DNA from: Conexivisphaerales archaeon
Lineage (GTDB): Archaea > Thermoproteota > Nitrososphaeria > Conexivisphaerales > UBA164
DNA: 42,978 nt
NCBI GenBank assembly: GCA_030756715.1
Contig: JAVBJD010000004.1
Coordinates: 8,728 to 51,705 of the forward strand
Direction of reading: 5' to 3'
The notes below the pieces were generated by a model that was not told where the DNA came from, did not search any database, and saw only the letters and a list, made by a program, of their open reading frames with translations. Numbering within the stretch: the stretch's first letter is position 1; every line of letters begins with the position of its first letter. Positions 27,193 through 36,779 of the stretch are shown here, piece by piece. A program made the translations under genes and the position numbers.

Positions 27193-30100
27193 GTGAAATC
27201 AGAAGAGCTCAAAGCCGTCTTTGACGCGTCATGTCCTAACTGTGGGGGCCCAATAGATGTTGAAAGGTTAAAGAAAGGACTCGTTTGCTCAAGATGCCTT
27301 CCTCAGGAAAAGGACTATACATACGAAGAAATGCTCGAAGAAATGAAAAGATTGGGCACCCTGAAGTTCTTAAAGGAAGATTATGACGTTATCAGAGGTT
27401 TAAGGGATTTTTCTGAATTTTTTCGTAAGGCTGTTGGCTCAAAGATATCCGGGGCGCAGAGGCTCTGGACGATAAGGCTGCTCAGGAACGAAAATTTTGC
27501 AATTACGTCGCCTCCGGGAGCAGGTAAGACAACCTTTGGCATAGTGGTATCTCTTTACATGTTAAAGAAGAAGAAAAAATCCCTCATAGTGGTCCCTACA
27601 AGGACCCTTGCTTCTCAGTCTGTTCAGAGGATTCTCGAGTACGGCAAAAAGCTAGGTATAAACCCCAGGGTATTCACATACAGCACTAAGGACATAAAAA
27701 TAAGCGAAGCAGACATAGCAGTTGTTACCTCAAAATACCTGTTTATGCACTATGAAGATGTAGAATCATCTGACTTTAAGTTCGTCTTTGTAGACGACGT
27801 TGACGCTGCCTTAAAGTCAAACAAGAGCATAAGGCTGGTCCTGAGGTTAGCTGGTTTCAGCGAAGAAGAGATAGACAAAGCTAAGAACGCGATGTTTGCT
27901 GAAAAAAGGGTTGACCTTCAGAAGCTCTTTGAAATAAGAAAAAAAGTGATCAAGAGGAACATGATATTCTCCTCAGGCACGATAACGCGCTCAAGCCCTC
28001 TTTTTCTCGTCCTCATGGGTTTCAGACCTGGCTCGCCTGGCTCTTACCCCAGAAACGTGATAGACCTTTACGAGGACATGCCTCAGGACCTCCTTCAATC
28101 TCTTAAGAAGAGGATAAGCGAACTGGGCGAAGGGGGTCTTATCTTTGTAACCCCCGATCTTGGAAGCGATTATGCAGAAGAGCTCAGTTCAAAGCTGAAC
28201 GAAATGGGCATCAAGAGCGCTGTCGTGAGCGGTAAAAACGTAAAGGTTCTTGAAGAGTTCAAGAAGGGCAATTACTCAATACTTATAGGCGTAGCAACCC
28301 ACTACGGGACTCTTGTAAGGGGAATAGACATTCCGGAAAAGATAAGGTACGCAATATTCATAGGGATTCCAAGGTTCAAGTTCACTATAGGCGAAAGGAT
28401 GCATCCCGTTCTGATGACCCGTATACTTACATCTTACGCCCTTTACGTAAACAAACCAGATATAAACAGGCTGGCATCGATAATAAGGAGGAAGATAACA
28501 AGGCTGAGCCCCGCAGCGCTTCAGATGCTCGCAAAGAATATAAAAGAGGGAGAAATAGAAGATCAGTACATACTTTCAGCTTACAACGTTGTAAACGAAG
28601 CTCTGAAGGATAAGAACTTCCTTGAAAAGCTCGGGTCTACTATCGGTGCAGTTGTAAAGAACGGAAGCATCTACGTCCCAGATATAATAACTTACATACA
28701 GGCCAGCGGAAGGACATCAAGGATGAGATCTTGGGGGAACACCCTTGGATTAAGCCTTCTTTACGTTGACGATCAGAATCTGTTTCAGCTTTTCAAGAAG
28801 ATATCCTCAATCACTTTTGGAATTGAATGGAAAAGGCCCGACGAGGTTGACATAAAAAAGGTACTGAAACGTATAGACATGGACAGGAGCGAAGTAATTG
28901 TTGAAGAACAAGCAGTAGCTTCTGAAGAGACCTCAAAGTTCTCCTCAACCCTCATGATAGTGGAATCTCCTCACAAGGCAAAGACTATAGCCAACTTTTT
29001 CTCAAGGCCTGCCATAACGATAAGGGAAGGGATTGTAGTTTTTGAAACCGTTGTCAGCGGGAACCTGCTGAACATTGCTTACACAGCAGGGCACGTCATG
29101 GACCTCACTCTCGATAAAGTGGGTTACCATGGGGTTGAAATAAGGGAAAATTCTGAAAGAGAGTACGTACCGCACTACGCCGGCATAAAAGAGTGCGAAA
29201 ACGGTCATCAGGTTACAACCGCAGGAAACACATGCCCGATCTGCGGAGCAAAAATAGTGAGGGACAAGACGAGCATGATAAGCGCTCTCGAAAAGCTTGC
29301 TTTTGCTGTCGATACAGTCCTTATAGGCACAGACCCAGATACCGAAGGGGAGAAGATATCATGGGACATGAACAGCATCCTGAGGCCTTTTAATTCAAAC
29401 ATAAAGAGGGTCGAGTTTCACGAAGTCACAAAGCCAGCGCTGCTGAAAGCAATAAGCGAATCCAGGAACATTAACGAGAACCTTGTAAAGGCTCAGGTAG
29501 TTAGGCGGCTTGACGACAGATGGCTGGGTTTTGAGCTTTCAGCAAGGTTGCAGAACGAGTTCTGGAGATCTTACTGTGAAAAGAGTTACGGCATAGGGTG
29601 CGACAGGCCGAACAGAAACCTGAGCGCAGGAAGGGTTCAGACCCCTGTTCTTGGCTGGATAATAGAAAGGTACAGGCAGTACAACGATAAAAAGAACCTC
29701 GTGAGGGCTTACTCTGCCCATTTAAACGGTCTGCCAATAAGGTTTTACGCTGAGCAGGCCAAGCTTGCAATAGGCGATGAAGTTAAGCTGAGAATAAAAG
29801 ACTCAAAAATTACCGAGGAAAAGATCAACCCGCCTCCGCCTTATACGATGAGCGAAATACTCAGGGATGCGGCCAACATACTCAAGCTCTCTACGAGCGA
29901 GATTTCAGGAACCCTCCAGGATCTTTTTGAAGCCGGGTTCATAACTTACCCCAGAACAGACAGCACCAGAGTCTCAGAAGCAGGTATTGCGGTAGCCAAA
30001 AATTATATAACTCAGATACTGGGTCTGGACGAAAAGCAGTACTTTTACCCGAGAAAATGGGGGGAAGGTGGGGCACATGAAGCGATCAGGCCCACGAAAC

Positions 30101-30780
30101 CCCTTTCATCGCAGGATCTCAAGAACTACCTGCAGCAGGGTTTGATCTACACGCCTATAGCCATAAGCTGGAGGCACTATGCCGTTTACGACATAATATT
30201 CAGAAGGTTTATAGCGAGCCAGATGCCCCCAGCCACAGTTAAAAAGCAGATACTGTCTTTGAGCGCTGAAAAAGATGGCGCAAGTATAACCGTGGACCCT
30301 AACCCTCTAGAAATACCGCTCGAATATGTTTTTGATGGATTTGCAAGGGTTCTCTCTCCATACAGAGAGCTGCACAAGCTGGTTACTGTGAGCGAAGCTA
30401 TTGTAAAGGTAGAGAACTTTTATGAGTTCAGACGCATAGAGCTTTACTCTGAAGGGGATCTGGTAGATGAGATGAAAAGAAAGGGGATCGGCAGGCCCAG
30501 CACCTATTCGACGATAATACAGACCATTCTTATAAGGCGCTATGCAATACTGAGCGGTGAAAGGAAGAAGATAGTTCCAACAAAGCTTGGAATCGCTGCT
30601 TACAGCTTTCTAAGAGATAACTTTGGCGACCTCGTTAACGATGACATAACTTCAAAGCTTGAAGCTAAGATGGACCTGATAGAGAGCGGGAACGTCAGCT
30701 ATAAGTCTGTTTTAGATGAAATACTTAACGAGCTTACAACGAGGTTAAAGATCGAAGTCCCAGTTATCAAAGAAAAGTAA
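27193..30780 (+). CDS. rgy: Reverse gyrase
   Basis: Introduces positive supercoils; the one protein so far associated specifically with thermophily at high temperature. The 1195 residues run: N-terminal Zn finger (CPNCGG, then CSRC), helicase-like half with Walker A SPPGAGKTT (about 106-114), VDDVDAALKSNKSIR in the DEAD position, and QASGRTSRMRSWG as motif VI; then the type IA topoisomerase half from MIVESPHKAKTIANFF (about residue 587), GTDPDTEGEKISWD as the TOPRIM acidic patch, DDRWLGFELS, and the active-site tyrosine Y919 in FITYPRTDSTR. There is no intein. The second Zn finger reads CENGHQ, then CPIC, and appears to lack one of the usual four Cys. Start GTG. Confidence 0.97.
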   Translation: MKSEELKAVFDASCPNCGGPIDVERLKKGLVCSRCLPQEKDYTYEEMLEEMKRLGTLKFLKEDYDVIRGLRDFSEFFRKAVGSKISGAQRLWTIRLLRNENFAITSPPGAGKTTFGIVVSLYMLKKKKKSLIVVPTRTLASQSVQRILEYGKKLGINPRVFTYSTKDIKISEADIAVVTSKYLFMHYEDVESSDFKFVFVDDVDAALKSNKSIRLVLRLAGFSEEEIDKAKNAMFAEKRVDLQKLFEIRKKVIKRNMIFSSGTITRSSPLFLVLMGFRPGSPGSYPRNVIDLYEDMPQDLLQSLKKRISELGEGGLIFVTPDLGSDYAEELSSKLNEMGIKSAVVSGKNVKVLEEFKKGNYSILIGVATHYGTLVRGIDIPEKIRYAIFIGIPRFKFTIGERMHPVLMTRILTSYALYVNKPDINRLASIIRRKITRLSPAALQMLAKNIKEGEIEDQYILSAYNVVNEALKDKNFLEKLGSTIGAVVKNGSIYVPDIITYIQASGRTSRMRSWGNTLGLSLLYVDDQNLFQLFKKISSITFGIEWKRPDEVDIKKVLKRIDMDRSEVIVEEQAVASEETSKFSSTLMIVESPHKAKTIANFFSRPAITIREGIVVFETVVSGNLLNIAYTAGHVMDLTLDKVGYHGVEIRENSEREYVPHYAGIKECENGHQVTTAGNTCPICGAKIVRDKTSMISALEKLAFAVDTVLIGTDPDTEGEKISWDMNSILRPFNSNIKRVEFHEVTKPALLKAISESRNINENLVKAQVVRRLDDRWLGFELSARLQNEFWRSYCEKSYGIGCDRPNRNLSAGRVQTPVLGWIIERYRQYNDKKNLVRAYSAHLNGLPIRFYAEQAKLAIGDEVKLRIKDSKITEEKINPPPPYTMSEILRDAANILKLSTSEISGTLQDLFEAGFITYPRTDSTRVSEAGIAVAKNYITQILGLDEKQYFYPRKWGEGGAHEAIRPTKPLSSQDLKNYLQQGLIYTPIAISWRHYAVYDIIFRRFIASQMPPATVKKQILSLSAEKDGASITVDPNPLEIPLEYVFDGFARVLSPYRELHKLVTVSEAIVKVENFYEFRRIELYSEGDLVDEMKRKGIGRPSTYSTIIQTILIRRYAILSGERKKIVPTKLGIAAYSFLRDNFGDLVNDDITSKLEAKMDLIESGNVSYKSVLDEILNELTTRLKIEVPVIKEK

Positions 30781-35095: not shown

Positions 35096-35426
35096 AATCA
35101 GAGTATTTGAAAAAGGGCATATTTAGATTTTTATATAATTACTTTTTATATATGCAATTTTTATACAAAAAGCCCCATTTGGGTGATTCCCAGTTGATTG
35201 TTATGCTTGCTTATACGCATAAAATGATATGCTGTTTACCTTTTTATCTATCTCTTTTCCAGTAAAACCATACAATCTGTAAAGCTTTTTGGCGCGTTGG
35301 TTTCTCAAGTTCACAAATCAGCTTTTATGTAGAATCTAAATGATTTTTTTAAAAAAGATGATGCTCACTTTTAGGTTAAAAATTTTTAGCTTTCACAATT
35401 ATAACGTTCCTAGCTGTATTTTATTT
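35096..35426. other. A/T-rich divergent intergenic region
   Basis: Between the COG4280-like gene (minus) and the primase-like gene (plus). It holds at least two box A-like runs (TTTTTATATAATTAC near 35130 and TTTTTATATATGC near 35146), a candidate weaker box AATTATAAC at 35397-35405 before GTG 35427, and no further gene that I can support. The frame upstream of 35427 is open to ATG 35340 but is very A/T-rich. Confidence 0.45.
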
Positions 35427-36779
35427 GTGGACTGGACAGATATAAAGAGACATTATGAGAGCGATTACGTAGCTAAAGAGATTATAGATTACTCTAAAAG
35501 CAGATGGGTCGCGCTCGAAGCACCGTCAGAAGGGCAAAGGATATTTATAAGGTACGATAAAGGTGAGCCCTTATCTATAAAGGACAGAGCTGATTATGAT
35601 GGCATACTACAGAGGTTTTCTCACTTAAAACCCAGAACGATCTATGCAACAGCAAACTTGTACAGCGTTTTGAACTTACAGAGCGTAAAAAACGAAACCT
35701 CAATAATAAGAACTACTCCAGCATTTGACGTCGATGGATCTCTGGAAGATTACAAGCTTATCATGAAAGTTGCAGATATTATAGTTCAAGAGCTTGACAG
35801 GTTCAAGGTTTCCAAATCCGTTTACCTAATATGGTCTGGCAGAGGTGTACACGTGCAGATAAACGAGAATGCTTTCTCTGATGATCTGCTGAAAAGGTAC
35901 GGTCCCTTGAGAGTTGCGCGCTCAGTCGTTGAATTTATACTTGCAAGAACTCATGAAGAGATAAAGAAAATAGCTGCAGCTGCAAAGAACAGCGACAGAG
36001 AGCTGAAAGCCGAAAACAAGATGGATGTAGAGAGGGTTTTCACCGTTCCCCTTTCTTTTCATAGGTTTCTTGATTATGTATGTGTGGCTTTCAAACCAAA
36101 TGAGATCAACGATTTTGACATAGCTTGGGCGGATCCCAAAAATTACAGGCACAACGCTTCTTGGAGAGACTGCGTTATCGGTGAAGCTGACGAGCTGGCC
36201 CTTAAAGCTCTGCAAAATCATCCTAAGGCTGAACCTAATGAATACCCGATTAAAAGAGAAACAGATGTGGCGGCCAGAAAAAATGAAGGACTTGGCAGGT
36301 TTCAGGTTATGGGTCTCATGCAGGCAGCAAGGTATTATCTGATAAAAGGAGACATTAAAAAAGCTAAATCCTTCGGTCTTAACAGGGCGATATTCTACGC
36401 ATGGGCGAAGAGGTACGGACCAGTTAAAAAAGGCGGAGTACAGAAGCGTTTAGGGGAAGAAACAACCAAAGAAGAGGTTTATGGCTTTGAAAAAGTAGGA
36501 AACGAAGAAGCCCCGATCGATAAGGGGTCAGGGCTCTTCATGATAGGCAACAAGGTTCAGACGCCAGAAGACTACGATCGCGAGATAGCTATGAGGATAA
36601 ACGCATTTGTGCCCTATGATAAAGCATGGGAAAGAACTTTAAAGTACATGAGCAGATTCCCTAAAGAGTACCTAGAAGATCAGAGGCTTTTCTTTGAAAG
36701 GGTTTACAGACCTGTTCGCGACAGCTTTTTAGAAAAGGTTGTAGAAGAAAAAGAGCTCGATGAAGATCAGGCTTCATAA
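35427..36779 (+). CDS. Archaeo-eukaryotic primase (AEP) superfamily protein with extra C-terminal domain
   Basis: About 450 residues. All three AEP core motifs are visible: metal-binding FDVD (coordinates near 35724), SGRGVHVQI (near 35835, as SGRGxHV in PriS) and VPLSFHR (near 36045, as RxPxSxH in PriS). The DxD pair, His and the second His suggest a competent nucleotidyltransferase. The last 170 residues (ARYYLIKGDIKKAKSFGLNR, then AMRINAFVPYDKAWERTLKY) are a separate helical domain not found in PriS. No primase large subunit is near. GTG 35427 begins VDWTDIKRHYES, the part that looks like AEP; an in-frame ATG at 35340 would add 29 A/T-rich, dubious codons. It may be the organism's PriS or a second, repair-type primase. 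Confidence 0.7.
   Translation: MDWTDIKRHYESDYVAKEIIDYSKSRWVALEAPSEGQRIFIRYDKGEPLSIKDRADYDGILQRFSHLKPRTIYATANLYSVLNLQSVKNETSIIRTTPAFDVDGSLEDYKLIMKVADIIVQELDRFKVSKSVYLIWSGRGVHVQINENAFSDDLLKRYGPLRVARSVVEFILARTHEEIKKIAAAAKNSDRELKAENKMDVERVFTVPLSFHRFLDYVCVAFKPNEINDFDIAWADPKNYRHNASWRDCVIGEADELALKALQNHPKAEPNEYPIKRETDVAARKNEGLGRFQVMGLMQAARYYLIKGDIKKAKSFGLNRAIFYAWAKRYGPVKKGGVQKRLGEETTKEEVYGFEKVGNEEAPIDKGSGLFMIGNKVQTPEDYDREIAMRINAFVPYDKAWERTLKYMSRFPKEYLEDQRLFFERVYRPVRDSFLEKVVEEKELDEDQAS

Follow-up and report, generated by a model that had tools for sequence, protein, structure and literature searches.

The window (the whole stretch of DNA analyzed: 42,978 nucleotides of contig JAVBJD010000004.1, from a Conexivisphaerales archaeon) carries a forward-strand gene at 35427 to 36779, described in an initial annotation as a stand-alone primase-superfamily protein with an unassigned C-terminal domain. 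The gene is a real, open reading frame of 450 codons. A mechanical ORF call starts at an ATG at 35340; the GTG at 35427 is supported as the start because relatives begin there, L003 (73% identity) among them. The features discussed below are as follows:

35427..36779, + strand: AEP and orphan-domain gene, 450 aa, GTG start at 35427 (backed by relatives), stop included
35427..36224, + strand: AEP catalytic domain, residues 1-266; AlphaFold pLDDT mostly >95, PDB Foldseek E 3e-6, PriS profile match
35727..35735, + strand: motif I, D101-V-D103 (metal binding); does not vary in the first alignment and is present in all members checked except a degenerate Ignicoccus-type pair
35835..35852, + strand: motif II, S137-G-R-G-V-H142; invariant in the first alignment, aligns with PriS SGRGYH
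36024..36026, + strand: motif III, D200 in ENKMD; aligns with the PriS motif III Asp, kept in 114 of 122 members
36225..36284, + strand: linker, residues 267-286, predicted disordered (pLDDT <50)
36285..36776, + strand: orphan C-terminal domain "CTD-A", residues 287-450; own fold, found elsewhere as a separate gene of ~160 aa
36369..36395, + strand: CTD-A signature SFGLNRAIF, where conservation within the domain peaks; across 51 sequences S, G, L, N, R, A and F never vary

As first described, the neighbors are membrane proteins and a DUF488 protein (OFeT_1 iron permease, TauE permease, DUF488-N3 and a cytosine/purine permease), and PriL is not adjacent, being located on another contig (C82). 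The window also encodes a reverse gyrase (27211-30735, + strand, above the TIGR01054 cut-off), and the organism is therefore a thermophile, as had been proposed.

The AEP catalytic domain

An AlphaFold model of the 450-aa protein (79 aligned sequences, mean pLDDT 90) showed two confident domains joined by the disordered linker at residues 267-286. All three AEP motifs expected from the initial annotation were present, with D101/D103, S137-G138-x-G140-x-H142 and D200 invariant in the first alignment. A Foldseek search of the PDB with the model gave 62 matches at E≤0.001, the best one with E 3e-6 and a probability of 1.00, and the leading matches were AEP proteins throughout. Target-normalized TM-scores were 0.58 for Prim-PolC, 0.56 for CAPP, 0.53 to 0.57 for the LigD polymerase domain and 0.55 for the Methanocella nonhomologous end-joining (NHEJ) polymerase, against 0.35 to 0.42 for archaeal PriS, values that are lowered because PriS is larger and its alignments extend into the second domain. 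The ordering, and with it a closest structural resemblance of the AEP domain to repair Prim-Pols (Prim-PolC, LigD polymerase domain, CAPP), is thus suggestive only.

What is shared with the repair enzymes is the AEP core. Mycobacterial Prim-PolC, which acts in LigC-associated gap filling (PDB 6sa1, 5op0), gave the highest TM-score, yet identity is only 12 to 14%, a ligase neighbor is absent, and CTD-A, present in or alongside the family, has no PDB match. The LigD polymerase domain and the Methanocella NHEJ polymerase (PDB 5dmu) likewise have the core in common with the family (TM 0.53 to 0.57), but the 450-aa protein lacks a ligase or phosphoesterase domain, the genome lacks Ku and there is no ligase neighbor; the Pfam LigD_Prim-Pol model matched 2 of 13 family members weakly (E 0.011, below every curated cut-off).

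A widespread family with three architectures

Searching the class with the 450-aa protein retrieved full-length relatives as well as relatives of either the first or the second domain only. Profile searches found the AEP domain in 133 of 398 sampled Thermoproteota genomes and CTD-A in 111, and a scan of GTDB contigs yielded 206 relatives, among them Baldr-, Njord- and Odinarchaeota, Bathyarchaeota, Nanopusillus, Nanobsidianus and Aenigmatarchaeota, so that the family extends to Asgard and DPANN archaea. A sequenced Sulfolobales-type genome (G547) encodes one member. The family has no model in Pfam, NCBIfam, PHROGs or PADLOC: single-sequence searches of these collections and of PDB sequences gave nothing, beyond matches of single members to PF01896, LigD_Prim-Pol or TIGR00335 that were weak and far below cut-off, whereas profiles and the predicted fold did match. 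Full-text literature searches found no description of the family; an AEP family survey from 2018 is about mobile elements (PMC5862659), the passages found in a 2015 review mention no such family (PMC4538821), and a 2025 paper on Asgard primases deals with PriS/PriL (PMC12770985). We call the family undescribed only with respect to the literature searched, since the 2005 AEP survey of Iyer et al. and arCOG annotations fell outside this scope.

Three architectures were distinguished. Long forms (about 430 to 510 aa) combine AEP and CTD-A as in the 450-aa protein, mid forms (about 390 to 430 aa) combine AEP with a different C-terminal extension, and short forms (about 290 aa) consist of AEP only. 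The term "stand-alone" is incomplete, since the 450-aa protein represents a single architecture within a widespread family, and CTD-A also exists as a separate gene. The second type of extension, in mid forms such as L131:3995-5254 (+) and L202:2274-3470 (+), among others, carries EDILSHxxLG ... LLSHGPPR in many cases; the L202 protein had no Pfam match. The architectures match the family tree, a quick maximum-likelihood reconstruction with long branches (97 rows, SH-aLRT support) in which short forms fall on a single branch (93), long forms on what is essentially a single branch, and mid forms are paraphyletic; the lone "mid" form inside the long-form branch (L109) is cut by a contig end. The 450-aa protein and its congener group with DPANN sequences (support 99), and its nearest relatives outside the genus are the DPANN sequences L063, L067, L072 and L141, at about 45 to 51% identity. 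This grouping suggests that lateral transfer may have occurred between DPANN archaea and thermophilic Nitrososphaeria, in either direction. Another AEP was observed in two genomes of the same class (L164:1378-2508 and L165:1372-2508, both on the - strand), with a LigD-type Prim-Pol domain (L164) preceded by a sub-threshold MCM_C winged-helix match.

The orphan C-terminal domain and the state of the active site

The C-terminal extension, originally put at 170 helical residues, is real and comprises 164 residues (287-450); it is mostly helical, though a small beta sheet is also present. Folded alone, CTD-A gave a confident structure (pTM 0.82, core pLDDT >95) that matched nothing in the PDB below E 1 and nothing viral in BFVD below E 0.5, and in these libraries the predicted fold is a previously unseen one. 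Across 51 sequences, 20 columns are invariant, clustered in RFxVM...LQAxR and SxGLNRAxF. In one stand-alone CTD-A gene (L027:370-1920, + strand), an intein with a LAGLIDADG domain interrupts the SWGLNRA signature. Inteins usually occupy functionally critical motifs.

CTD-A matched none of the primase accessory domains considered. Identity with PriX or the PriL C-terminal domain was rejected because neither fold nor profile similarity was found (the PriL profile was built from two sequences only), and PriCT was rejected on both fold and profile. Plasmid Prim-Pols of the PolpTN2 and pRN1 types resemble the long form in joining an AEP and a C-terminal accessory domain in one chain, but they are plasmid encoded and their C-terminal domains are related to PriL or PriCT (PMC3973330, PMC5862659), neither of which CTD-A matches in fold or profile. 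Mobile-element Prim-Pols such as PrimPol-PV1 are defined by a PriCT/PriL-like C-terminal domain and location on a mobile element, and the 450-aa protein has neither. Eukaryotic-type PrimPol has a UL52-like C-terminal zinc finger, whereas Cys is absent from the CTD-A of the 450-aa protein.

CTD-A is a separate gene in 15 of 15 mid-form genomes (a 16th has a long paralogue), no separate copy was found in 61 of 64 long-form genomes, and 32 of 37 short-only genomes lack the domain (two of the five exceptions are fragments). Because of these counts, CTD-A is assigned to the long/mid module, which it accompanies in cis or in trans, and not to the module formed by short forms and the RadC1 ATPase (see below).

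The full catalytic set (D101, D103, H142 and D200) is intact in 114 of 122 distinct members, including 82 of 90 long forms and every short and mid form, and catalysis is thus under selection in nearly all lineages. Exceptions are five Desulfurococcales-type long forms with Ala or Asn at D200, one with Glu, and two Ignicoccus-type proteins that have lost the AEP motifs and kept CTD-A (degenerate AEP fused to intact CTD-A; L214:1956-3146, - strand, and L215:1782-2882, + strand). The degenerate pair and the D200 substitutions indicate that catalysis is not always the selected function, and CTD-A may be useful beyond catalysis in a few lineages. These exceptions could be taken further, with CTD-A as the core unit (for instance a DNA-structure or replisome-binding factor) and AEP as its nucleic acid-binding or regulatory module, for which catalysis would be optional. 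Such a reading would accommodate the strong invariance of CTD-A, the intein within its signature and the 11 of 398 genomes with CTD-A and no detected AEP (one being a degenerate fusion). We nevertheless consider it unlikely, given that most long forms and every short or mid form keep the catalytic set, and that short-only genomes mostly do without CTD-A.

Association with RadC1 and with Y-family polymerases

In 14 of 19 loci, the short form immediately follows a RadC1/Sso2452-type KaiC ATPase gene on the same strand, often with a 4-base overlap, compared to none of 93 long-form and none of 12 mid-form loci (flanks of 1.5 to 4 kb; some organisms are counted twice, from two collections). This partner, a KaiC-like RadA paralogue, is an ATPase and not an AEP, and matches Sso2452 (PDB 2w0m, E 6e-100) and TIGR03881. 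A Sulfolobus islandicus radC1 knockout is damage sensitive (PMC4471258), and Sso2452 was one candidate partner of the ssDNA-SSB complex (PMC10003305). One such locus also encodes, upstream of the ATPase and short AEP, a small protein that matches the SWIM zinc finger below threshold (L010:3216-3569, - strand). Inspection of up to 19 kb around each long-form or stand-alone CTD-A locus revealed no shared neighbors beyond synteny at the genus level, and no RadC1 above the curated cut-off was detected in the Conexivisphaerales archaeon genome.

Y-family polymerases (PF00817) were rarer where the AEP family occurs: 14 of 114 genomes with the family had one, against 75 of 165 without it (odds ratio 0.17, Fisher P = 2e-9). 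The sample was apparently 279 genomes of the phylum outside the class of the Conexivisphaerales archaeon, and the test ignores shared ancestry and growth temperature. The pattern is a lead, not proof of replacement. Families f29, f37, f42 and f68 have both the AEP family and a Y-family polymerase, and so does the Conexivisphaerales archaeon itself, in which the Y-family polymerase (G000:C23:107-547) shares a small contig with PriS.

Separation from the replicative primase

The suggestion that the gene encodes a second primase-superfamily enzyme, separate from PriS/PriL, was borne out by both genome content and phylogeny. The genome has its own PriS (G000:C23:6140-6514; PF01896, 333-aa ORF), shorter than the 450-aa protein as anticipated, and PriL on C82. 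PF01896 PriS was present in 23 of 26 family-positive genomes tested and PriL in 11 of 14, all misses being incomplete MAGs; PriS-PriL was found in all near-complete genomes tested. In the AEP phylogeny, PriS forms one clade (support 96) and the family another (99), on opposite sides of a supported branch of length 2.3. The protein does not group with PriS, and a separate PriS exists in the genome, contrary to the outcome that the initial annotation named as refuting a second primase. The two share superfamily, motif order and remote homology (97.3% probability, E 1.9e-11 in profile comparison, with the motifs aligned), but the family is a separate clade and a separate gene in the same genome, lacks a PriL neighbor, and lacks the Cys-rich zinc-knuckle insertion that PriS carries between motifs I and II (profile alignment). 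The AEP domain of the 450-aa protein contains 2 Cys only.

An auxiliary or repriming replication primase, acting with MCM/GINS at the normal fork and not in the repair of damage, would also be in keeping with the AEP fold and with how widely the family is conserved on Thermoproteota chromosomes. This seems improbable to us: PriS-PriL is already there in the near-complete genomes, the zinc-knuckle insertion and PriL-like and PriX-like domains are all absent, and the family is missing from most genomes of the archaeon's own order (Conexivisphaerales) and class. A mobile-element primase or a defense/CRISPR-associated Prim-Pol is a very unlikely identity. Many non-PriS AEPs are encoded by mobile elements (PMC5862659), CAPP is among the Foldseek matches and the spread within the class is patchy, but no relative was found in IMG/VR, phage or plasmid collections, PHROGs and PADLOC gave no match, the neighbors are ordinary metabolic-type genes conserved between two species, the architecture tracks the family tree, and across lineages neither cas genes nor integrases nor plasmid genes were seen linked to the family. 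Finally, that the protein is the ordinary replicative small subunit is scarcely credible, since its remote profile similarity to PriS is set against the canonical PriS and PriL of the same genome, the long supported branch between them and the lack of a match to PF01896 or TIGR00335 above curated cut-off.

Proposed function

We lean towards a second chromosomal primase-polymerase, separate from PriS-PriL and serving DNA damage tolerance or repair, as the somewhat probable identity of the 450-aa protein. A role in repair or lesion bypass is plausible in view of the RadC1 operons of the short form, the nearness to repair Prim-Pols and the Y-family pattern. Because the long form has no conserved neighbor, its link to repair is borrowed from its short paralogue, and two points count against a damage-tolerance reading in this host, namely the presence of a Y-family polymerase and the absence of RadC1 above the curated cut-off. 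In Saccharolobus, PriSL mediates Ku-independent double-strand break repair (PMC12019639).

Under this reading of a second primase-polymerase, the enzyme would most likely fill gaps, bypass lesions or reprime, and the orphan domain would be its DNA or partner adaptor. With two metal ions, the AEP domain would elongate short DNA or RNA, or initiate it de novo, on substrates arising from damage, gaps or recombination, while CTD-A would anchor it on DNA or a partner protein; the short paralogue would be delivered by RadC1 instead of CTD-A. In lineages without Y-family polymerases, the enzyme may serve for bypass or repriming.

A bolder and rather doubtful extension is that thermophilic archaea without Y-family polymerases have in AEP/CTD-A their missing enzyme for translesion synthesis or repriming, that CTD-A is a new kind of accessory domain for polymerases, and that RadC1 runs a sister module. 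If true, this would add a further archaeal route of damage tolerance and address the open question of how damaged DNA is copied in hyperthermophilic archaea that lack Y-family polymerases. The Sulfolobales-type member makes direct expression and testing possible for a Prim-Pol family that occurs in a third of sampled Thermoproteota, has no curated model and is genetically tied to a known recombination/repair ATPase.
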